64,000 nucleotides of DNA from Sedimentisphaerales bacterium (lineage in GTDB: Bacteria > Planctomycetota > Phycisphaerae > Sedimentisphaerales > SM23-30). Where the stretch lies: NCBI GenBank assembly GCA_028281535.1, contig JANQJS010000024.1:1-64000 (forward strand). Direction: 5' to 3'. This document shows positions 2,974 to 28,255 of this stretch, one piece after another; the stretch's first letter is position 1; every line of letters begins with the position of its first letter. The position numbers and the translations under genes are program-made. The notes under the pieces were generated by a model that was not told where the DNA came from, ran no database searches, and worked only from the letters and a program-made list of their open reading frames with translations.

Positions 2974-3528
2974 ATGAGATTAGATGAATTAATAGCAATG
3001 TTTCCTCCTCCGGAAGAGATTTATTATGCTGGCAGTGATGAACAATGGCAGCGTCTTGAACGTGAGTCGAATCTGATTTTTCCTGAGGACTATAAAATGT
3101 ATACATCGCTTTATGGCAGTGGATCGTTTGAGGATTTTCTGCATATTTATAATCCCTTTACGGATAATCTTCCTACGAATCTTGTTCATTTAATTCCAAT
3201 CATCTATGATGTTTACGAACATGGTTATGAGGGTCGCAATGAGAGTGCATGGCCATTTAAAGGGTTTCTTCAAGAACGTCCCATTATGCCATTCGCGCGA
3301 ACGAATAATGGCGATGAACTCTTTTGGCATTGCAAATCTGATGATCCGAATCAATGGGGGATTACTATCAATGAAACTCGATCAACAAATTGGGAGTTTT
3401 ATGATCTTTGTTTTGTTGATTTTTTAGTGCAGGTATATAAAAAGGAAATCACACCTGATATTTTTGAGGATCTACTTCCTGGGGAAAATCCACGATATGA
3501 TAATTCATTTTATCAAGATGTGGATTGA
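2974..3528 (+). CDS. SMI1/KNR4 (SUKH-1) family protein, 184 aa
   Basis: The protein has the typical SUKH-1 layout: an N-terminal W-x-x-L-E...FPEDYKMYTSLYGSGSF core (residues about 25-52), then a loop ending in nPF, a central WPFKGF strand, and a GDELFWH segment near residue 109. Family members act as immunity proteins in polymorphic toxin systems and as general protein-binding modules. No Rhs, WXG or CdiA-like toxin is present in the window, so this would be an orphan immunity gene. It closes a four-gene same-strand cluster. Confidence 0.75.
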   Translation: MRLDELIAMFPPPEEIYYAGSDEQWQRLERESNLIFPEDYKMYTSLYGSGSFEDFLHIYNPFTDNLPTNLVHLIPIIYDVYEHGYEGRNESAWPFKGFLQERPIMPFARTNNGDELFWHCKSDDPNQWGITINETRSTNWEFYDLCFVDFLVQVYKKEITPDIFEDLLPGENPRYDNSFYQDVD

Positions 3529-3563
3529 AGTAATTAAAGTACCTTATCTCTCTAGTTACCTAA

Positions 3564-3788
3564 AAGTCAATTCTGTTTAGCAGATTATTCGTTTTACTAG
3601 GCAAATTGAGGGATTTGCTCAACAGATCGAGCGATTTGCTTAGTAAATTGTGCTCGGTGTTTACCAAATTGACCATTTTGGTAAGCAGATTGGTAATTTT
3701 ACTAAGCTGCGAGTGTTTTTTGGTAAGTGAATTGGGCGATTTGATTAATGGAAAGTGGTTTTTGATAAAGATGAAACGCTCAAATTGA
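3564..3788 (+). repeat. Degenerate ~21-bp tandem repeat encoding leucine heptads
   Basis: About ten imperfect 21-bp units run through this gene-free stretch (3529-3931). In the frame open from 3564 to a TGA at 3786-3788, every unit starts with LL, VF, LV or LI followed by S/G/N, K/R, L: for example LLSRLFV, LLGKLRD, LLNRSSD, LLSKLCS. That is a strict seven-residue leucine repeat. There is no ATG in the frame and no ribosome-binding site, so I list it as a repeat and not a gene. A leaderless or TTG-initiated (3606) coiled-coil peptide cannot be excluded. The remainder of the 3529-3931 gap shows nothing else. Confidence 0.6.
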
Positions 3789-3931
3789 GGTTTAGAGGCT
3801 ACGAATAAGGGAGTTCTGATTTAGGTAGAGTGATTCGTCTTGTAATTAGAATGAGTAAGTTTATACTTAAATATAAATTGGATTAAAAACTGAACATACA
3901 AAAATAGTGTTTTAGTAGGCCACTCCTCGAT

Positions 3932-11374: not shown

Positions 11375-12343
11375 ATGCAAAAGCCATTACTATCTTTATT
11401 GGTGTTGATGATATTGAGTCAACTCAGTTGGGGATATACTATATATGAGCCGGGATACACTGTGGAGCATTATGTGACATTTTCCCCGGGTTGGTCGCAA
11501 CATATGACGTTTGATGATTCTGGTAATTTATATACCATTCATAAAGGATCTGGGAATATCACAAAAATCGCTCCAGATAAAACGATGACTAATTTTGCCA
11601 GTGGTTTGCATGGCATTGATGATATTGTTTGGACGGGAGGGACAGCGTTTGGTGATCATTTATATGTTAATGTCAAACCCAATAGTATTAAAAAAATAGA
11701 TTTAAATGGTAACATAACACATCTAGGCAATATCACAGAACCTTCATTTATGGGAATCGATCGCTCTGGCTTATTTGGTGGTAATGTGATATTTGGTATC
11801 AGTGGTCAAGATGCGCTTTATCAAATCAATACGAGCAATCAGATTAGTTTATTTAATCCATGGCCTACCCCAACCGGCGGTGGTGGTCCTGAAGATATGG
11901 CCATGAAATTAGGAAATACAGGTCCTTTGGCGGGTCGCATGTTTTTGACGGGGCATTTTACGACGTCGTCACTTAACAGTGGATTATTTGAGATAGATAC
12001 TAATGGTAATGTGACACGTTTTACAAATGCGATTGGCGCAGCAAAATTTATTGATATTGATCATACTGGTGCTATGTTTGGTGGCGATATGTTTGTTGAT
12101 GGAACAGATATTTATGGTTCTCCTGATTGGGGATTATGGCGAGTCAATCCTAATGGTCAGGCAACACTTTTTGGTGAGAGAATAACAAACTTTACCTTCG
12201 GGCCTGACGGAGCACTCTATATTGCACAAGCGGTTAATGGGATGACAGAGGTCAGTCGTATTGTTGAAATTCCTGAACCTCTCACAATTTCACTCATAGG
12301 GATAGGTGGGCTAATGATTTCTAGAAAGAGAAGGGTAAGCTAG
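11375..12343 (+). CDS. PEP-CTERM sorted beta-propeller-like protein (322 aa)
   Basis: A signal peptide (to about residue 20, LSWG) is followed by repeated NGN-[IV]-T strands (GNLYTIHKGSGNITKI, DLNGNITHLGNI, DTNGNVTRFTNA), suggesting an NHL/SMP-30-like propeller. The end, VEIPEPLTISLIGIGGLMIS then RKRR, is a complete PEP-CTERM signal: PEP box, hydrophobic helix and basic tail. Such proteins are exported and processed by an exosortase, which is not in this window. GAGGAG lies upstream of the ATG. Confidence 0.85.
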   Translation: MQKPLLSLLVLMILSQLSWGYTIYEPGYTVEHYVTFSPGWSQHMTFDDSGNLYTIHKGSGNITKIAPDKTMTNFASGLHGIDDIVWTGGTAFGDHLYVNVKPNSIKKIDLNGNITHLGNITEPSFMGIDRSGLFGGNVIFGISGQDALYQINTSNQISLFNPWPTPTGGGGPEDMAMKLGNTGPLAGRMFLTGHFTTSSLNSGLFEIDTNGNVTRFTNAIGAAKFIDIDHTGAMFGGDMFVDGTDIYGSPDWGLWRVNPNGQATLFGERITNFTFGPDGALYIAQAVNGMTEVSRIVEIPEPLTISLIGIGGLMISRKRRVS

Positions 12344-14715: not shown

Positions 14716-17700
14716 TTAATTTTTTTTCTTCATTTGAATCAAAACGGATTGATTATTAAATATGGAGAATGTCTTTTCGGTGTTGTTGATAGCTTTTACG
14801 TTAAATTCTTTTTCTACTGGTTGATATCCTTCTGCAACGGCTTGCACGACATAATTTCCAGGCAATACTTTAAATGTTGTTTGCCAGCCAAATTCGCTAT
14901 CCGGTTCAATGATGTCGTGTCCATGCATCGTGACTTTCGCATGAAAAGGAAATCCTGATTCAGATACAACGGATACTGTAACATTGCTTGCATGATAAGG
15001 AACGTCAAATGTTTGTGAGCTGATATCAATGTTTTTGCTTTCATCTTCTGCCAATGAGATTTTGATTGAATTGCCTGGTAATAAAGAATATAAACCCAGT
15101 CGATAATCACCTGGCGGTAAATGTTCAAATTTATACTGGCCATTATCAAGCTGATTGATTTGACTTTGGATACGTCCATCTTCACTTTCAATGCAGATAT
15201 ATTTAATATCTTCACTAATTTTACCATGAATAACGCCGCGATCATCCGGTAGCTGAAAGATTTTGGTCACATCCTGAGAATTTGTGGTTAATGCAATTTG
15301 ATGATTATATGAAATACTACCACTCCGACTTAATTGCACATTAATGAGGCCTGCTTGAAGTGGACTTACCATAAATGGGGCTTCTGGATTTTTGAGTTTG
15401 TCAAAAGGCAACGGGATGGTATTCATTGTGCCAACATACGCGAGGCTTAGCCAGCAATTTATATCTGCCTGATCAACAGCTAGATTTAACTTCAGGCTTG
15501 ATTTCGGTACGATTTTTAAATCCAGATCACCCTCTGGAACATTGACATCCATCAGTTTGACTTTATAGTGGTTATGAAATCCGACATGGCTAAACAAGCC
15601 GTAATGACCAGGTAGAATCCCTTTAAAACTAAAATGGCCTTTTGAATCTGTAAAGGTTTTTGCTCTTAATCCTTCGAGCTTCCACGAGGAATAGGGGCTA
15701 GATAAGACAACTTTGACATTAGCTTGTGGCACGCCATCATAGATAAGCTGACCTTTCAGTTCATTTTGGCCACCGAGATCTATCCGCATCATTTTCCCTT
15801 TTTGAGGGACAAAATTACGCTGTGTCACGCCATAGGAATTGTACTCATCTTTATGGATTAAATAACAAATATTTTCCGGCAGGCCATCCATGCGATAGTA
15901 CCCATTTGCATCTGTGACCGCAGAGGCCATCACCGTTGAATCATTGATTCGAATGGCATTTCCTGGACGAGTCTGGGCATACAAAACTTGTCCCTCTTGA
16001 GGCTTGCCTAATTGATCATAGACGATGCCTTCAATGCTGCCGCCTTGTGGTAAAATAATGTCGACATCATGTGTTGTTAGACCATTTTTAACTGGAATAT
16101 CCTCTTTGATGATAAAAGTATAATCAGAGTGGACGACTCTAAGCGTCTCATGGCCTTCGGGTAAATTTTCAATGAAAAACTTGCCTTGGGAGTCTGTTTG
16201 TACAGCACCTTGTTTTGAAACAAACTGTGTACCTTCATCAGATCGTAGTCCCTGGGCTTTTGATAAAGCAATAATCTGGGCATTTTCGACCGGCCTTCCT
16301 TCTTCGTTGAGTACCTTGCCCTGAATTCGACTACCACCGGGATAAAGTTCTATTTTAACTGGTTCTTCTAAATCACTATCTATCATTTCACTCCAGGTAA
16401 TCCCATACCCTTCAGCTCGAACACATAGTTTGTAATAACCTGGTGTATTTACCTCTAGATCGTATTTTCCAGCGTCACCAGATAGCGTAACCCATCGGCT
16501 GGTGATATTACTTCGCAATCCAGGTTTGTCTTTCACTTTTACGATTCGTATCTCATATTCATCAACAGGGACACCATTTAATTTGTCTACGACAACACCT
16601 TGCAGGCGTGGTTTGTTAAAGGTTTCAATAACGATATCCAGTTCTTCCGTAGGGGCTTTGACTTGATTTAATGTGATGGGCTTGATTCCCTGACCGACGA
16701 TTCGTATTGTGTAGGTTCCCGGTTCAATATCTTCCAATTCAAAATAGTCTTCATGAATACTTAAGGACGTTGAATAGGAGCGGTTACCAAAGCTTTGTCT
16801 AGCTTCTAGCTCAATATATCCAGGCTGACCATCACCTACCCATTCAATATGACCTGCAATGACTGCAGTGCTAGCTGCTGGTGAATTAAATGGAAGTTCA
16901 ATGGATAATATCTCACCATCTTTGGGTGGTAATTTTGTCTGAAGTAAAGAATATACTGATCTACCACCATGTCGAATAGGAACACGTGCTGTAATATTGT
17001 ATAGACCTGGTTTAATATTTTCAGCATTGAGATAGCCGTTTTCATCAGGGCTGAATGATGGACCTAAGCTGGGCGAATTCCACCATATTGGTAGGATTCC
17101 GATATCTATCTCTTTGTTGGGTTGGCCATCTTTATAATAAGAAAATGCCCGAAATCCTTTTATCTTTTCTAATGACACTTCAAGCCGTTCAACCTTGTCT
17201 GGGTTATCCAAAAATATTTCAAGTCCTTCTGGAGCATAATTATGAATTGCAACATTGGTATAGATGCCTTCGTCTAATTGCCTTCGTTCTGAATTCGTGT
17301 GTACGACCGTAATAAAATATCGATCATTCTTTGCTAGCCCACCTAGCATTACTTTTCCCTGTTCATCAGTTAAATTTCCTCGGTTATGATATGGTTCGGC
17401 GCCAACCTCTTTATTTCTGTCTGTTTTTTTCGTCACACGGACCCTCGCATTTTCCAATGGATTGTCTTCATGATCTTTGATAATCATTTGCACTTGGCAT
17501 GCCCTCGCTAACTTAAAATGGCGAACTATTTTTTCATCATGCTCTAAGCGAATATTTGGAGATTCGGGTGTAAATGGAAGAATACAAACATAATCCCATG
17601 AGTTGATGCAAAGTCGAAAGTCACCCGTTTTTTCGATCTTATCAAAACTATAGAATCCATTTTCGTCGCTACTTACCGTTAAATTTTTACCGGAACTTGA

Positions 17701-18867
17701 AAGCCGTACCTCTGCATTTACAATGGGGATACCGCTATCAATATCAGTAAGAAGTCCACTTAATACACCTTTGGCTTGAAATTCATACTCTGTTTTTTCT
17801 TCAGTCGTTTCTAAGTTTGTTGATTGTGACTCTTCAGATTCATCCTCATTATTTTTAGGTGTTATGTTATTCACTTGGGTATTGGCAGAATCGTTGGGAA
17901 TAATATCTTCAACCTGATTGGATTCAGTATTATATGTCTCATCTGTTTGTTGTAATGATTTGTCCTGATCTGCGTTACTTGATGTTTTTGGAGCAGTGGA
18001 AAACCTCGACTGGGCATCATTTGACTTTGCTACTTGCTGAGATGCTGGTTGTTCAACTTGTTTGCTCTTATCAGCTGCTGGGGGGGTAGTGTTTTGTATG
18101 TAAACAACAGAGCCGATCGCAACCATCGCAACTGCCGCAGCAGTGATGACTTTTGCCGTCGCACCACTTACCAATACGCCTAAGCCAGATGCTTTTGTTG
18201 CAGCTAGGCCTGCGGCAATGGTTCCAGCACCTTCGATAGCCAGACCTGAAATGGATGTGACCACCGCTGTCGTAAAAGTTTTGGAGGGGCGTGTAGATTT
18301 TAGCGTTTCTTCGACCAGGCTGCTCAACTGCTTTTTGATCATCCCGCGGCCCCGATGCAATCGTTGCCGTACGACATTTTCTTTCAAGCCTAAATATTGC
18401 GCCACTTCTTGAACAGATTGCCCTTGACGATAGTAAAGAACAATGGGTTCACGGTAACTTTCCGGTATCTGCTCAATTGCTTCACGAACCAGCTTTTGAT
18501 TTTCCAAGCTTATGGCAGAGGTAAGTGGATCCGGTTGTACTGATGCCGCGTCATATGCTTCTTCGACTGGCTGAGCTTTTGAAACGACATCTCGCTGCTG
18601 CTTTCTGTAATAAGCCTTTACGTTATTTCGCGCGATGACGCTAAGCCATTGCTGGAATTTATGAAGTTCTTTGAGTTGTCCCAGCTTTTTCCATGCGTTG
18701 ACAAATGTTAAATGAGCCAATTCTTCACTAATTTGGAAGTCAGCTGTACCACTATAGGTGATCGATGTGACCAGATTTTGATATTTTTCAACAATAAGCT
18801 CAAAGGCTGCGGAATCTCCCTTGAGGCATTTTTTTAGCACTTTCTCGTCATTAATCATTGTAGTCAT
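14716..18867 (-). CDS. ECF-type sigma factor fused through a membrane helix to a ~1,100-residue extracytoplasmic region (1383 aa)
   Basis: Residues about 10-90 are sigma region 2 (FELIVEKYQNLV, LAHLTFVNAWKKLGQL, KFQQWLSVIARNNVKAYYRK). Residues about 122-182 are region 4 (IEQIPESYREPIVLYYRQGQ, SVQEVAQYLGLKENVVRQRL). A helical, alanine/glycine-rich segment and a membrane helix (about 238-258) follow. Then comes a Ser/Thr/Asn/Gln-rich linker and a chain of carboxypeptidase-regulatory-like beta domains, each with a G-x-V-x-D-x-x-G-x-P-[VI]-x-x-A motif and a DxNGxYxFxxLPxG motif, ending in a PEGA-like module. The expected topology is sigma part inside, sensor outside. There is no separate anti-sigma gene beside it; release by proteolysis is inferred. 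No strong ribosome-binding site before ATG 18867. Confidence 0.85.
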   Translation of the reverse strand: MTTMINDEKVLKKCLKGDSAAFELIVEKYQNLVTSITYSGTADFQISEELAHLTFVNAWKKLGQLKELHKFQQWLSVIARNNVKAYYRKQQRDVVSKAQPVEEAYDAASVQPDPLTSAISLENQKLVREAIEQIPESYREPIVLYYRQGQSVQEVAQYLGLKENVVRQRLHRGRGMIKKQLSSLVEETLKSTRPSKTFTTAVVTSISGLAIEGAGTIAAGLAATKASGLGVLVSGATAKVITAAAVAMVAIGSVVYIQNTTPPAADKSKQVEQPASQQVAKSNDAQSRFSTAPKTSSNADQDKSLQQTDETYNTESNQVEDIIPNDSANTQVNNITPKNNEDESEESQSTNLETTEEKTEYEFQAKGVLSGLLTDIDSGIPIVNAEVRLSSSGKNLTVSSDENGFYSFDKIEKTGDFRLCINSWDYVCILPFTPESPNIRLEHDEKIVRHFKLARACQVQMIIKDHEDNPLENARVRVTKKTDRNKEVGAEPYHNRGNLTDEQGKVMLGGLAKNDRYFITVVHTNSERRQLDEGIYTNVAIHNYAPEGLEIFLDNPDKVERLEVSLEKIKGFRAFSYYKDGQPNKEIDIGILPIWWNSPSLGPSFSPDENGYLNAENIKPGLYNITARVPIRHGGRSVYSLLQTKLPPKDGEILSIELPFNSPAASTAVIAGHIEWVGDGQPGYIELEARQSFGNRSYSTSLSIHEDYFELEDIEPGTYTIRIVGQGIKPITLNQVKAPTEELDIVIETFNKPRLQGVVVDKLNGVPVDEYEIRIVKVKDKPGLRSNITSRWVTLSGDAGKYDLEVNTPGYYKLCVRAEGYGITWSEMIDSDLEEPVKIELYPGGSRIQGKVLNEEGRPVENAQIIALSKAQGLRSDEGTQFVSKQGAVQTDSQGKFFIENLPEGHETLRVVHSDYTFIIKEDIPVKNGLTTHDVDIILPQGGSIEGIVYDQLGKPQEGQVLYAQTRPGNAIRINDSTVMASAVTDANGYYRMDGLPENICYLIHKDEYNSYGVTQRNFVPQKGKMMRIDLGGQNELKGQLIYDGVPQANVKVVLSSPYSSWKLEGLRAKTFTDSKGHFSFKGILPGHYGLFSHVGFHNHYKVKLMDVNVPEGDLDLKIVPKSSLKLNLAVDQADINCWLSLAYVGTMNTIPLPFDKLKNPEAPFMVSPLQAGLINVQLSRSGSISYNHQIALTTNSQDVTKIFQLPDDRGVIHGKISEDIKYICIESEDGRIQSQINQLDNGQYKFEHLPPGDYRLGLYSLLPGNSIKISLAEDESKNIDISSQTFDVPYHASNVTVSVVSESGFPFHAKVTMHGHDIIEPDSEFGWQTTFKVLPGNYVVQAVAEGYQPVEKEFNVKAINNTEKTFSIFNNQSVLIQMKKKN

Positions 18868-19260
18868 TTAAGTTATCTCACTTTTTATCTGGATACTATT
18901 ATAATCTCTATAATAATGAAAATTCAGAACAAAAAAGGTGACAAAGAAAATTATGGAAATATTTTTTATGACCTAATTTATTGAAAATGACTATTTGAAA
19001 TGTTAGTCAAGAATGGATCAGTATAGAGAATTAATAGAAAATTGATAAAAAAGAAAAGATAAGTTATGGAAAACGTTCCATATAACCAAGTTTTTTGAAT
19101 CGATCATTCCGACAAGGTTGAATTATCGTCCTATAGTTTTTTCTTTGGCAAGAATTAATTATTCACTTGTGATTCAACCGATGACTCTATAGACTGCGTT
19201 TAGGTCAGAGAGAGAGAAATAGATTAGATAATAGATTAAATATCCATATGGGAGAAAAAA
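18868..19260. other. Divergent intergenic region (sigma fusion / PEP-CTERM gene)
   Basis: An AT-rich 393-bp spacer that must hold both promoters. One clear inverted repeat, GTTATGGA AAACGT TCCATATAAC, lies at about 19063-19086 and could be an operator. I cannot assign -35/-10 boxes with confidence. GGGAGAAAAA stands before the PEP-CTERM ATG. Confidence 0.4.
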
Positions 19261-19959
19261 ATGGGAAAATATTCTATCTATAAATGCGTCTATTTACATT
19301 TAATGGTTTTACTTTTTGTGTTTGTCAGTACTGATAGAGCCTATTCTGCTCTGTTGTTGCCTGTTGATGATGCCTATACGCGCGTTGCGGCACCAGATAC
19401 GAAATTTGGTAATCTGGATGACAATATCATTTTTCTTGAACGGATTATTGTTGATTCAGAATCGATCTCATCTGCAGAAGCGCATTTTAAATATGATTTA
19501 AGTGTTATACCTGCAAATCAAATTATTACATCTGCTACGATTCTGTTAGATCCATTTACATTTACAGGCTCACCTGAGATTAGTCTGTTTGAAATGGGTG
19601 ATAACTGGGATGAATCTACGATTACGTATAATAATAGACCCACTTTTACACAGGCAGATAAATTAGGTGAAAAACCTTTCTCGGAGTCAATTTTTGACGC
19701 ATTCGATGTGACTGCTGCGGCTCAAGCGAATTATTTAACCGATGGATTTATCAGTCTGACGGCTGTGATTTCAGGCCCCTTACAAACCGCCAGTAGTGTT
19801 TCGATGTATAGCCAAAATATATTTAGTGGGAATAATAATTTTACCCCGATCTATTTGAATGTTGAGTATCAAGAAATCCCCGAGCCTGCAACGTTGTCAA
19901 TACTTCTATTAGGTGGTGTTATATCTTTTCGAAAAAAGATTCGCTCACCTCATTTTTAA
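19261..19959 (+). CDS. PEP-CTERM protein with DNRLRE-like domain (232 aa)
   Basis: A signal peptide (to about residue 29, AYSA) precedes a domain with the DNRLRE layout: a VDDAYTRV start, AEAHFKYDLSVIPANQIITS, WDESTITYNNRPTF, and FDVTAAAQANYLTDGFISL. Such modules behave like carbohydrate-binding or stalk domains in exported proteins. The tail EIPEPATLSILLLGGVISF then RKK is a PEP-CTERM sorting signal. It would be exported and processed by an exosortase located elsewhere in the genome. Confidence 0.85.
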   Translation: MGKYSIYKCVYLHLMVLLFVFVSTDRAYSALLLPVDDAYTRVAAPDTKFGNLDDNIIFLERIIVDSESISSAEAHFKYDLSVIPANQIITSATILLDPFTFTGSPEISLFEMGDNWDESTITYNNRPTFTQADKLGEKPFSESIFDAFDVTAAAQANYLTDGFISLTAVISGPLQTASSVSMYSQNIFSGNNNFTPIYLNVEYQEIPEPATLSILLLGGVISFRKKIRSPHF

Positions 19960-20187
19960 AAAATTTTAGTGGCTTAACTGCATTATACGTTTCAGATCCT
20001 TCTCATTTTCCTATCCTGAAATCATTAGTTGTTTTTTTCTGTTTGATATTTTTATACCGCCTATGGCGATTAAATATAAATTCGCTGATTCGGGAATACA
20101 TTCTTTAATGACTTGTATTTGATATCTTTTAAACTATAATCGATTCCGGTTGATTAGGACGAGTTGCTAGTTATTGTCGGAGATATC

Positions 20188-21378
20188 ATGATGAAACAGT
20201 GTCAGATTGTTAAGGCGGCTTTTATTATTCTTATGCATTCAGTGTTTTGTGTGGGAGCTTCGTTTCAAGGATTGGGTCTTATTGAGGGAAGAGATTATCA
20301 ACATCCTTGGGCGATGGATGCCTATGGAACGACTATTGTGGGGGAATCGTCATCTACGAAAGTCTTAGAGCATTCGACAGGTTCAGATACCATCATTTAT
20401 GCCAATACAGGATTTGTGTGGCAGAACAATACCTATACAGAAGTTGCGACTGTTCATAATGAATTTATCAGTTTTTTGGCTGATATCACGCCCGATGGCA
20501 CTGTTAAAGTTGGAGCATTACAACTTCAAGTCGGCAATACTCCTTATCTTGAGGATAAAGCTTATAAAGATGTCAAAGGCACAGTCACTTTTTTGGAAAA
20601 CCTTAATGGTGGTACACGTTCAGCAGCGGTTGGGGTCTCTGCTGATGGACATCGTATAGTGGGTGGGGCTATTAGTGGTAATGGCAGTTACCGTGAAGCT
20701 GTGATGTGGGATGATGGTGTTATTTCCAGCTTGGGAATATTACCTTCTTATAATTCTAGCTTTGCGTCAGGGATTTCAGCCGACGGACAGGTTGTGGCTG
20801 GTTTTTCAAATAATAGTGATTGGGCGACTCCGAGTGAAGCATTTCGTTGGGAAAATGGTCAGATGGTTGGTTTGGGGTATCTCAATGGTGGTACTTCGAG
20901 TTTTGCCCAAGGCATTTCAAGTGATGGTTCAGTCCTCTTTGGAACCGCTTCGGATGGTAGTGAAAATAATCGATTTGAAGGCGTGCGTTGGGTTAATGGT
21001 ATCTTGATGTCTTTAGGTCGTTTAGATGGTGATTATATTCAGCCATTGGGTGCATCTGGGGGTGGTTCGATTATCGTTGGTGGAACAAGTTTCGATCTTT
21101 TTGATCATTATGTTGATCGACAGGCGTTTATTTGGGATGAAGTGAATGGAGCTAGATCTTTACAGGATGTTTTGATAAGTGAATACAATCTTGATTTGAC
21201 CGGCTGGACGTTACAATATGCTAGTCATATCAATGATGCAGGTAATATTATGATTGGATTGGGGGAAAATCCTGATGGTCAGAAGGAGGCATGGATTGCA
21301 CATATTCCAGAGCCTTTAACAGTGAGTTTGTTGGGAGTGGGTAGTGTTATTATTTCTCTAAGAAAAAAATATCATTAG
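20188..21378 (+). CDS. PEP-CTERM protein with HAF-type repeats (396 aa)
   Basis: A signal peptide (MMKQCQIVKAAFIILMHS to VGAS) precedes six or so repeats of the HAF type: G-[IV]-S-x-D-G-x-x-[IV]-x-G followed by EA-x-x-W-x-x-G and L-G-x-L. Examples are GISADGQVVAGFS..EAFRWENG and GISSDGSVLFGTAS. The tail IPEPLTVSLLGVGSVIISLR then KK is a PEP-CTERM signal. The frame opens at TTG 20164, but ATG 20188 follows CGGAGA and starts the signal peptide; ATG 20191 is equally possible. Function of HAF-repeat proteins is unknown. Confidence 0.82.
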   Translation: MMKQCQIVKAAFIILMHSVFCVGASFQGLGLIEGRDYQHPWAMDAYGTTIVGESSSTKVLEHSTGSDTIIYANTGFVWQNNTYTEVATVHNEFISFLADITPDGTVKVGALQLQVGNTPYLEDKAYKDVKGTVTFLENLNGGTRSAAVGVSADGHRIVGGAISGNGSYREAVMWDDGVISSLGILPSYNSSFASGISADGQVVAGFSNNSDWATPSEAFRWENGQMVGLGYLNGGTSSFAQGISSDGSVLFGTASDGSENNRFEGVRWVNGILMSLGRLDGDYIQPLGASGGGSIIVGGTSFDLFDHYVDRQAFIWDEVNGARSLQDVLISEYNLDLTGWTLQYASHINDAGNIMIGLGENPDGQKEAWIAHIPEPLTVSLLGVGSVIISLRKKYH

Positions 21379-24442: not shown

Positions 24443-24814
24443 ATGAAGTTAACAGACTCTGAATGGTTAGTAATGAATGCTCTGTGGGAAAGGCAGCCTG
24501 CAACAGCTCGGCAAATTGCTGAGAATTTGCCTGACGAAGTTCAATGGGCTTATACTACCTTAAAGACAGTATTATCACGGCTGGTTGAGAAGAAGTGTAT
24601 TGCAGAAGAAAAAGTGGGGAATACGAGCCAATACACATCCATTTTGTCCCAAAAAAAAGCGCGAAAAAGTGCTTTTTCTAAATTAATGGACCAAGCGTTT
24701 GACGGCGCTTTTGGTTCCATGTTGCATTTCTTGATTGATGATCAACCTTTGACAGAAAAACAACGTGCTGAAATTTTAAAAATTCTTCATGAAGAAGAGC
24801 AGAAGGAAGAATAA
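24443..24814 (+). CDS. BlaI/MecI/CopY-family transcriptional repressor (123 aa)
   Basis: The winged-helix domain is clear: LTDSEWLVMNALWERQPATA, then RQIAENL, YTTLKTVLSRLVEKKCI, and a wing EEKVGNTSQYTSILSQ. The C-terminal part (SAFSKLMDQAFDGAFGSMLHFL) is the dimerisation region where BlaI-type repressors are cleaved or inactivated. It ends 15 nt before the M56 gene. By analogy with BlaI-BlaR1, the membrane protease relieves repression when its outer domain receives a signal. The family is common in Planctomycetota and usually not linked to beta-lactams. Confidence 0.93.
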   Translation: MKLTDSEWLVMNALWERQPATARQIAENLPDEVQWAYTTLKTVLSRLVEKKCIAEEKVGNTSQYTSILSQKKARKSAFSKLMDQAFDGAFGSMLHFLIDDQPLTEKQRAEILKILHEEEQKEE

Positions 24815-24829
24815 ATCATAGGGATTTAG

Positions 24830-27800
24830 GTGTGGGAAACTATGATCGAAGTAATTAATCATTTTGCTGGTATCTGGTGGAGTTGGATGTTACCGATGTT
24901 CTGGCAAGTTAGTTTATTGGTTATTGTTGTCTGGGCATTTGATCTACTGATTCATAAATGGGTTTGGCCGCAGGTTCGTTATCTTTTATGGTTATTGATC
25001 CTATTAAAGTTAATTTTACCTCCGGCGTTTTCCTCGCCTGTTAGTGTGACGTCACGTTTAATTGAAAATGAGATGATTGAGGTTCCAGTTGCCACAGTAC
25101 CAAGGAGTGTCATTAGCACGTCTCAACCACCTCTTATAAAGCTATTTGATTATTCTCAGAATCCTCCAGATTCTATTGGGTCGGATCTTGGCCCAGATAT
25201 TATTAGCAGTAGTAGTAATGTTGTTCAGCCTGAACGTTTAGCAGAAGAAAAGGTAAGTCCTTCAGAGGGGGGTGTGGCTGCAACTTCCGATATGGTAGAG
25301 ATGTCACTGCAAAGTTACCTGATGTTATTATGGTTATTGGGAGCATGCTTTTTCAGTGTGTGGTTATTTATTCGTTTTAGAAACTTACAGAAATGTTATT
25401 TTCAGGACAGTCTGGACGTACAGTTGCCAGACTGGTTTGACGAGCAATTTGATGAAATCAGTGCTCTTTTAAAATTAAAACGAAAGCCAAAAATTATATT
25501 ATCTCAAAAAGTACACTGCCCAGCTGTTTTTGGCGTATTTCGGCCTGTCTTTTTAATGCCAGCAAACCAAATCTGTTATTTGTCAAAAGCTGAAGGACGG
25601 CATATTATTTTGCATGAGCTTGCTCATATTAAACGTAAGGATTTGTGGTTACATGCCATATATATGGCATTGCAGATTCTTTATTGGTTTCATCCTTTGG
25701 TTTGGTGGACATCAAAACGTTTGCAACATTTAAGAGAGTTGTGTTGTGATGCGACTGTTTCAAATTTTTTGCGGGAAAAAACAAAAGATTATCGTGAGAC
25801 ATTAATTCAAACCGCGAAAGCGTTGGTGGCAAAACCTGTAGAGCCGGGGATGGGCTTGTTAGGGCTCTTTGAGGATTCGCATCGATTGGTTGTTCGATTA
25901 CGCTGGTTAGATAAACAGACCTGGCGTTATCCCAAAATCCGTTTGAGTGCCATCGCAATCACATTTGTGACAATGCTAATGTGTGTCTTGCCCATGGCGG
26001 GTTACGTTTATGAAGAGACCTTTTCTGCTTCGGTTGGGCAACTAATGAAAGCAGAAGATGGAAGAATTGTCTATCGGCCTGATCAGGATGCTGAAATAGA
26101 AATTTTAGGAATAACAAGTTATCCATTGTGGCCATCACAATTATGGTGGGCTGCGGATGGAAGTTTGTTGCCACATGCACCGGAAGAATTTTCTGAAAAC
26201 ACCGAAACGTATACATTTGGCTCTGTTGAGCATGATCATGTATATTTATATATGCTTACGCGTTCTAAGGTTCCTGATCACTATAATTTAAAATTCGTGA
26301 CACCTCAGGATGATGTGAAAACCTTTCTTTTAGCAAATCTAGAGAAAAATATTCAATTATGGGGTATTTCGATAGAAGGGACAATATTTAGTCCTTTAAT
26401 GGATGTTGAAATAGCTTTAGCCAGTGGTGCGTGGAACAGCTATGATTTATATCGTGATATCGATCTTGATCGTGCTTTTGCTAAAGAAAGAAGGGAAGAC
26501 TATCCGAGCTGTCAATTGCTCCATTCGAAGAAAAATCGTACGATGCTTGCATTATGGCATTCAAAACCTTTTTTTGATTTATCTTTAGATGGTCGTATCG
26601 TGGCAATTAGTAACAATGGTGATGTGATTGCTCCTACCCGTTCTGAGCAATTGTTTAATGGGAATGATTTTCGATTTAATTTAGAATTTCCAGTTAAGGC
26701 GAGTGATATTAAATCGCTTAGAGTACAATACCGGCGGTATATTTCTTATTGCTTTAATAGCTTTCCAATGATGGCGGGGGTTGAAGCAAAATTGACACCT
26801 GTTACTAAAAAGATTCGTCGTATTCGTAAAAATGTTCGTGTGTCGGTTGTAGATAAACAAACGCAAAAGCCTATTCCTCATGCGACTGTTTTTGGTATAG
26901 ATCAAACGTTTGTCTACTGGAGTAAAGTTGCCAATAAACAAGGAAAAACTTTAGTAGAGCTTGAAGCGTCAAAAGACAATAAAATGACCTTTAGTGTAAG
27001 TGCAGATGGATATGGGGGCTATGGGATGTCCTGGAATAATATTTTTCGTGAAAATGATATGCCTGGAGAGGTTTTGTTCGAATTAGAACCAGGTTATTCT
27101 ATTGGAGGTATTGTAATAAACACAGAAGGGCAACCTATTAAGGATGTTGTTATTGACTTTAGGATTCCTAAGAGTGCAGAAGCTGCAAATAGCTTTTTTA
27201 CCTTCCCAACGAATTATCATGTAAGAACAGATGCCGATGGTCGGTGGCGTTGTGACAATGCTCCCGAAAAACTCAACGAAATTCAGATGAGATTAAACCA
27301 TCCAGGTTATATAAGGCATACAAGTATTGATGTCGCCGATGTCTCTTCAATTGATCAGCTAAGACAATTGAAAGGTGTCATGGTCATGCATCAAGGGTAC
27401 CGTGTTCGGGGTAGAGTTGTCGACCAGATTGGGGCACCTATAGTTAACGCTCGTGTTGTTAAAGGAGCTGATTTGTTTGGTAATTATTCTCCTGAATTGA
27501 TTCATGATCGTCCTCGTTTACGAGAGGTGTTTCCTGAGATAAGCACTTATACAGATGCCGATGGTTATTATCAGTTTAATCGTTGTCCATCTGGTCCATT
27601 GGTATTAACGGTTTTTCATGATGAATTTTCTCCTGATTTAAAAGAAATCACTGTGGGAACAGAGATAGAAAAGCAATCTGTTGATTTTCATTTGGGTTTT
27701 GGGATACCGCTGGAAGGAGTCGTGGTCAATTCCTCAAGAGAGCCGGTTCGTTGGGCTATTGTTATGGCGGATCAATGGCGTGGACACCGAACACTTGAGG

Positions 27801-28255
27801 ACGTTAGGTTTCTGACGGATGAAAAAGGTAATTTTTATTTTCCTCATATGCCATTAGACGAAATTACTTTTTCTGTTTTTAAAGATGGAGAATATTCAAC
27901 ACTACGTAATGTCGCTTTGCGTGGTGGCCAGAAAACGGTGAGGGTAACTCTACCTAACTTATTAAACGTTAAAGGGAATGTCATTGATGCTCAAACAGGT
28001 GAGAAAATTAAGCGTTTTAGAGTGATTGAAGCGATGCATTCAGATCTGTCCAGTCCTGCAAAACTAAATCATCAAAATGCTGTTCCATTTACTCAAGGAC
28101 AATTTGAGTTGACCTTTCAAAATTATCACCAGTTCCGATCATTATGCATTGAAGCCGAAGGCTATTTACCTGCTTTTACGAAGGTTTTTGATAGTAATGA
28201 GGCAGCGATGGAATTTAATTTGAAATTGCAAAAGAAGCCATATGTGTCTGAGTAA
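24830..28255 (+). CDS. BlaR1-like M56 membrane metalloprotease with carboxypeptidase-regulatory-like repeats (1141 aa)
   Basis: Membrane helices are at about residues 22-40, 46-64 and 162-182, then the M56 protease domain with HELAHIKRKD at 262-271 (zinc HExxH) and RELCCDA near 302-308 supplying the third ligand. A further helix lies at about 370-390. The remaining ~750 residues contain several beta-sandwich domains of the carboxypeptidase-regulatory type (VVDKQTQKPIPHATVFG, VVDQIGAPIVNARVVKG, TDADGYYQFNRCPSGPLVLT). There is no penicillin-binding domain. The predicted role is to sense an envelope signal and inactivate the BlaI partner. Start GTG 24830 or ATG 24842 is undecided. Confidence 0.88.
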   Translation: MWETMIEVINHFAGIWWSWMLPMFWQVSLLVIVVWAFDLLIHKWVWPQVRYLLWLLILLKLILPPAFSSPVSVTSRLIENEMIEVPVATVPRSVISTSQPPLIKLFDYSQNPPDSIGSDLGPDIISSSSNVVQPERLAEEKVSPSEGGVAATSDMVEMSLQSYLMLLWLLGACFFSVWLFIRFRNLQKCYFQDSLDVQLPDWFDEQFDEISALLKLKRKPKIILSQKVHCPAVFGVFRPVFLMPANQICYLSKAEGRHIILHELAHIKRKDLWLHAIYMALQILYWFHPLVWWTSKRLQHLRELCCDATVSNFLREKTKDYRETLIQTAKALVAKPVEPGMGLLGLFEDSHRLVVRLRWLDKQTWRYPKIRLSAIAITFVTMLMCVLPMAGYVYEETFSASVGQLMKAEDGRIVYRPDQDAEIEILGITSYPLWPSQLWWAADGSLLPHAPEEFSENTETYTFGSVEHDHVYLYMLTRSKVPDHYNLKFVTPQDDVKTFLLANLEKNIQLWGISIEGTIFSPLMDVEIALASGAWNSYDLYRDIDLDRAFAKERREDYPSCQLLHSKKNRTMLALWHSKPFFDLSLDGRIVAISNNGDVIAPTRSEQLFNGNDFRFNLEFPVKASDIKSLRVQYRRYISYCFNSFPMMAGVEAKLTPVTKKIRRIRKNVRVSVVDKQTQKPIPHATVFGIDQTFVYWSKVANKQGKTLVELEASKDNKMTFSVSADGYGGYGMSWNNIFRENDMPGEVLFELEPGYSIGGIVINTEGQPIKDVVIDFRIPKSAEAANSFFTFPTNYHVRTDADGRWRCDNAPEKLNEIQMRLNHPGYIRHTSIDVADVSSIDQLRQLKGVMVMHQGYRVRGRVVDQIGAPIVNARVVKGADLFGNYSPELIHDRPRLREVFPEISTYTDADGYYQFNRCPSGPLVLTVFHDEFSPDLKEITVGTEIEKQSVDFHLGFGIPLEGVVVNSSREPVRWAIVMADQWRGHRTLEDVRFLTDEKGNFYFPHMPLDEITFSVFKDGEYSTLRNVALRGGQKTVRVTLPNLLNVKGNVIDAQTGEKIKRFRVIEAMHSDLSSPAKLNHQNAVPFTQGQFELTFQNYHQFRSLCIEAEGYLPAFTKVFDSNEAAMEFNLKLQKKPYVSE

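Follow-up and report, generated by a model that had tools for sequence, protein, structure and literature searches.

The window, a stretch of 64,000 nucleotides of Sedimentisphaerales DNA, harbors on its minus strand a single open frame of 1383 amino acids, in which the domains of an ECF sigma factor are followed by one predicted membrane helix and a very large array of CarboxypepD_reg-type beta domains. This giant sigma-sensor protein is one of a family in related bacteria and not a one-off. The reading favored here, with a probability of about 0.55 for the statement as a whole, is that of a membrane-tethered ECF sigma factor with its own sensor, which would be silent as long as it is tethered and would be freed by stepwise cleavage. 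A first-pass annotation of this DNA had proposed a one-protein transmembrane sigma factor with an outside sensor, and the proposal is supported by the anatomy of the protein, its conserved family, and the presence of the same sensor on anti-sigma-like proteins. The features of the locus are as follows:

14716..18867, minus strand: whole ORF, 1383 amino acids, in the order sigma, linker, membrane helix, stalk, sensor (ORF, Pfam, and NCBIfam)
18592..18795, minus strand: sigma region 2, residues 25–92 (Pfam PF04542, Sigma70_r2, 5e-9)
18346..18492, minus strand: sigma region 4, residues 126–174 (Pfam PF08281, Sigma70_r4_2, 2.5e-12)
18256..18312, minus strand: post-sigma4 linker motif, residues 186–204, with E186, P194, F198, and V202 (family alignments)
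18097..18162, minus strand: predicted membrane helix, residues 236–257, Ala/Val-rich, of marginal hydrophobicity (hydropathy and dG-style scan)
17773..18093, minus strand: low-complexity stalk, residues 259–365, rich in T/S/E/N/Q (composition)
14719..17772, minus strand: sensor, CarboxypepD_reg-type beta-domain array, residues ~366–1383 (Pfam PF13620, 5.8e-54)
18915..18943, minus strand: promoter-like element TGTCAC-N16-TTTCATT, 47 nt before the ATG (family element search)

The protein has the layout of an ECF (group 4) factor, with sigma regions 2 and 4 as its only sigma domains; besides the Pfam matches, the generic NCBIfam ECF model TIGR02937 (sigma70-ECF) scored 82.5 bits, above its cut-off. 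CarboxypepD_reg was matched in seven stretches of the ORF. The order of sigma regions, one helix, and beta domains is as the first-pass annotation had described it, but the sensor comprises ~1,018 residues and not the ~1,100 given there, since residues 259–365 form the stalk. The helix at 236–257 is the sole membrane-helix candidate and a marginal one, at ~0.27 kcal/mol in a dG-style scan whose values are relative only; a conserved lysine, Lys239, lies near its start. The predicted topology places the sigma head in the cytoplasm, the helix across the membrane, and the beta domains outside. A search of the PDB with the sensor gave no match. Single-sequence AF2 models of the head (residues 1–262; mean pLDDT 43.8) and of 276 residues from the sensor (mean pLDDT 30.7) were set aside.

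To define the family, a profile of the head (sigma domains and linker) was searched against 397 genomes of the class. Scores >200 bits were reached by about 47 proteins from 30 genomes, whereas other ECF factors reached at most 143 bits, and the sigma-head family was also found in four further genomes of the same phylum outside the class. The family loci were fetched and their genes re-called, which gave ~20 long single-helix members (807–1383 amino acids), ~20 polytopic members (368–596 amino acids), and a few short ones. Pfam recognized sigma regions 2 and 4 in all 19 of the 19 long members and CarboxypepD_reg in 17 of them; no anti-sigma domain was among the Pfam families listed for these 19, and the HxxxCxxC motif was absent from every family member. 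A quick tree built from the sigma part separated the family from outgroup ECF factors (99) and placed the polytopic members on one side of a branch (91). The genome of the window encodes a full-length paralogue with 33% identity, and in ~20 long homologues, at ~20–33% identity, the frame is kept open through sigma, linker, membrane helix, and sensor; the fusion is therefore not a chance or assembly join. A scan of genome contigs with the full protein yielded only one match, at the CarboxypepD_reg level.

One homologue (L072:3389–7277, minus strand) breaks within the sensor into two overlapping frames of 444 and 861 amino acids, the cause being a genuine frameshift or an error in the assembly. 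At another locus (L048:4589–15486, minus strand), four sigma genes lie in a row on one strand, comprising one polytopic family member, one giant one, and two other sigma fusions of 751 and 915 amino acids, the latter with leucine-rich repeats. A 935-amino-acid sigma factor with several membrane helices (L066:7475–10282, minus strand), a distant relative by the family profile (132 bits), is situated beside a polytopic member. The genome of the window also encodes two sigma factors outside the family, of 626 and 629 amino acids (L091:6601–8481, minus strand, on C60, and L092:5971–7860, plus strand, on C24), each with a long C-terminal extension in which Pfam recognized no domain.

Immediately after sigma4, all types of members share a motif around E186, P194, F198, and V202, roughly E-x7-P-x-K-x-F-T-x2-V, with P194 and F198 invariant both in the alignment of long members and in that of the others, polytopic ones included. 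The matches of the family profile to solved ECF structures in the PDB (SigW, RpoE, etc.) end near position 190, and the motif extends beyond the region they cover. Profile comparison of the linker with the anti-sigma-like heads that bear the same sensor revealed no similarity (hhalign probability 1.6 and 2.5%). Since the motif is kept whatever the C-terminus, it probably acts on the sigma factor, RNA polymerase, or the membrane.

A search with the sensor alone in 161 genomes of the order revealed two main hosts, namely, the fused sigma heads (~18) and stand-alone single-helix proteins. In 13 of these stand-alone cases, the ORF of a separate ECF sigma factor lies directly upstream, frequently with a 4-nt overlap (sigma ORF 3352–3894 and sensor protein at 3891 in L143; 2755–3306 and 3303 in L144; 8998–9537 and 9001 in L088), and both sigma regions were confirmed by Pfam in all eight upstream ORFs scanned. 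Three of the separate hosts carry HxxxCxxC, the zinc-binding anti-sigma signature, and zf-HC2 was not called by Pfam in the two of these that were scanned; the other hosts have a different short helical head, whose position suggests an anti-sigma role. The presence of the sensor on sigma heads as well as on anti-sigma-like proteins gives it the look of an ECF signalling input module, and its placement after a single helix in the other hosts speaks for an outside position in the window protein. Judged from the sequences, the sensor looks as if it had moved between anti-sigma-like proteins and sigma factors, and the window family seems to have condensed a two-protein sigma/anti-sigma-like pair into one protein. 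A few sensor proteins occur without a sigma factor (L152, L153, and L154), and one more (L145) is cut by a contig end. At L153:2473–9169 (minus strand), two sensor proteins without a sigma or anti-sigma head are arranged in tandem and are possibly secreted. Another signalling device with the same kind of sensor is encoded nearby, at 24443–28255 of the window, where a BlaI/CopY-like repressor gene is followed by a gene for a BlaR1-like M56 membrane protease with a C-terminal CarboxypepD_reg part.

A spaced-word search upstream of 46 family genes identified a promoter-like element with the consensus TGTCAC-N16-TTTCTAT, situated ~45 nt before the start of ~20 members, both giant and polytopic. 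Scores of at least 11/13 were reached in 17 of the 46 upstream regions, against 0.45 expected from shuffled sequences, a count to be read with the proviso that related members and genes are not independent. With the strict pattern, 20 of the 28 matches in 598 kb were at family start codons, mostly 40–50 nt upstream, and seven permuted −35 control words gave 1–10 matches each in the same 598 kb. The window variant, TGTCAC-N16-TTTCATT (18943–18915), departs from the consensus in its −10 half; of six TGTCAC-N16-TTTC matches in its genome, it is the only one outside a long open frame. Over half of the family, the paralogue in the same genome among them, lacks a strict copy. Autoregulation is common in ECF factors. 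The position of the element upstream of sigma genes suggests a candidate autoregulatory promoter and, as it is common to giant and polytopic members, the shared sigma head is its likely reader; it could instead be read by another regulator. A regulon search with TGTCAC-N17/18-TCTAT in ten genomes gave 41 matches against 24 for the reversed-pattern control, and in view of this modest excess, we claim no targets other than the gene itself.

Several known systems resemble the window protein in part. In ECF52 (SCO4117 of Streptomyces coelicolor), positive autoregulation has been suggested and release by proteolysis proposed (PMC5826349, PMC8999054). Both ECF52 and the window protein combine sigma2-sigma4, a membrane helix, and an extracytoplasmic domain (a predicted one here) in one chain. 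However, ECF52, reported only in Actinobacteria, contains a carbohydrate-binding module as well as a zinc finger (pfam13490) located between the sigma part and the membrane, whereas the window protein has no detected anti-sigma domain, a different linker, and a ~1,000-residue CarboxypepD_reg array outside; pfam13490 was found by Pfam neither in the window protein nor among the families listed for members. IutY (ECF243), a sigma factor fused to its anti-sigma and activated by Prc and RseP (PMC8999054), likewise has a regulatory part that spans the membrane attached at its C-terminal side, but this part is a membrane anti-sigma of cell-surface signalling for iron uptake, and Pfam detected no such domain in the window protein. 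The pairs of a sigma factor and a single-helix partner described above (e.g., L088, L144, and L151) likewise place this CarboxypepD_reg sensor behind one helix; they differ in belonging to a different ECF lineage and in carrying the sensor on a second protein, whose head has HxxxCxxC or is of another helical kind. In the window family, the position of that head is occupied by the sigma head. Planctomycete WD40-repeat ECFs, likened here by description, also have large C-terminal repeat domains, of a different fold, and some ECFs have been observed in detergent fractions (PMC8567305). ECF41 has a fused C-terminal regulator, a TGTCACA-n16-CGTC promoter, and very few targets (PMC3426412). It shares the −35 TGTCAC and the ~16-nt spacer with the window family, but its −10 is CGTC and not (T/G)TCTAT-like, and its extension is not a membrane sensor; a SnoaL-like C-terminal extension of the ECF41 type was not found by Pfam in the window protein or among the listed member families. 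The window family thus resembles membrane-fused ECF sigma factors but has no recognized anti-sigma domain, the feature that defines ECF52 and IutY, and it may already have an ECF group number. A literature search for sigma, anti-sigma, and carboxypeptidase regulatory-like domains, with a scope outside the main ECF classification papers, found no paper.

By analogy with IutY and with the release proposed for ECF52, control by proteolytic release is plausible. In the mechanism we propose, the sigma2-sigma4 head would lie in the cytoplasm, the weak helix would span the membrane, and the flexible stalk would present the ~1,000-residue beta array outside, so that the fused protein would replace the usual pair of sigma factor and membrane anti-sigma, with the sensor attached directly to the sigma factor. 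At rest, the tether, probably together with the linker motif set against sigma4 or the membrane, would keep the sigma factor off RNA polymerase. When the sensor is engaged by a ligand or a stress, the stalk would be cut first and the helix next, with site-2-type (M50) proteases as candidates, and the freed sigma would activate, at a minimum, its own gene through the TGTCAC-N16 element. M50 proteases of the site-2 type are encoded in the genome of the window, which lends weak support because they are also encoded in 14 of 14 control genomes. For the family as a whole, we see about an even chance that it is a one-component ECF family without any anti-sigma domain, silenced by the ~20-residue juxtamembrane motif and the tether, and equipped with interchangeable sensors (giant beta arrays or polytopic modules), some of which also occur on anti-sigma-like proteins in unrelated ECF pairs. 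If this is true, an anti-sigma would be dispensable when the sensor is wired straight to the sigma factor, the control of ECF factors without a nearby anti-sigma would become testable on a defined motif and promoter element, and a membrane-to-promoter switch would be contained within a single gene.

The main rival to cleavage is switching in place, whereby, with the same topology and no proteolysis, the sensor would alter the helix and the linker and thereby mask or free sigma4, the sigma factor being active while tethered. The linker motif is kept past sigma4 in every sub-type, polytopic members included, as expected for an intramolecular switch, and the fused extension of ECF41 regulates sigma activity (PMC3426412). 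However, IutY, a membrane-fused sigma factor that has been studied, becomes active through proteolysis (PMC8999054), and a stalk of ~100 unstructured residues would be a poor transmitter of conformation; switching in place is possible but, on balance, doubtful. It is improbable that the linker (approximately residues 186–235) is a cryptic anti-sigma domain, which would make the protein a sigma-anti-sigma fusion like ECF52 or IutY: it is conserved, in the right place, and helical in the low-confidence AF2 model, yet only ~40–50 residues long, and the Pfam families listed for members, the absence of HxxxCxxC throughout the family, and the low hhalign probabilities against heads with the same sensor all argue against such an identity.

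The remaining alternatives concern the anatomy of the protein. A hairpin of two hydrophobic stretches (197–219 and 236–257), which would leave the beta domains in the cytoplasm, appears very unlikely, although polytopic members have a slightly more hydrophobic first stretch and a basic loop following the second. The first stretch of the window protein scored 2.5 kcal/mol on the same relative scale and is unlikely to span the membrane, and giant members mostly have one clear helix; moreover, in anti-sigma-like proteins this sensor comes after just one helix, and in the BlaR1-like protein of the window CarboxypepD_reg is placed behind the membrane protease part. That separate sigma and sensor products arise from internal starts, the fusion not functioning as one chain, is scarcely credible. 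In-frame GTG, TTG, and ATG codons do occur between residues 150 and 340, but a Shine-Dalgarno-like sequence precedes none of them (nor the annotated start), the frame is maintained across the ~20 homologues, and the frame change in the split homologue at L072 falls inside the sensor and not between sigma and sensor.

The surroundings of the gene agree with the earlier statement that no anti-sigma gene lies nearby, as no ORF with HxxxCxxC was found in the 4–34 kb interval of the window; among the neighbors of family members, one of 238 carried the motif. No neighbor gene was conserved across the family loci. The divergent gene at 19261, which encodes a DNRLRE/CBM96 domain and PEP-CTERM, had been put forward as a candidate target. 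This candidate was rejected because the element is missing on its side, where only background matches of 9/13 were observed as against 11/13 on the sigma side, and because synteny is not conserved; the genome encodes ~60 PEP-CTERM genes. PEP-CTERM genes are located around the window gene at 11375–12343, 19261–19959, and 20164–21378, and the convergent neighbor of the paralogue (L045:10215–11033) is also a PEP-CTERM gene. Both family copies in this genome thus adjoin a PEP-CTERM gene, as does no other family member checked.
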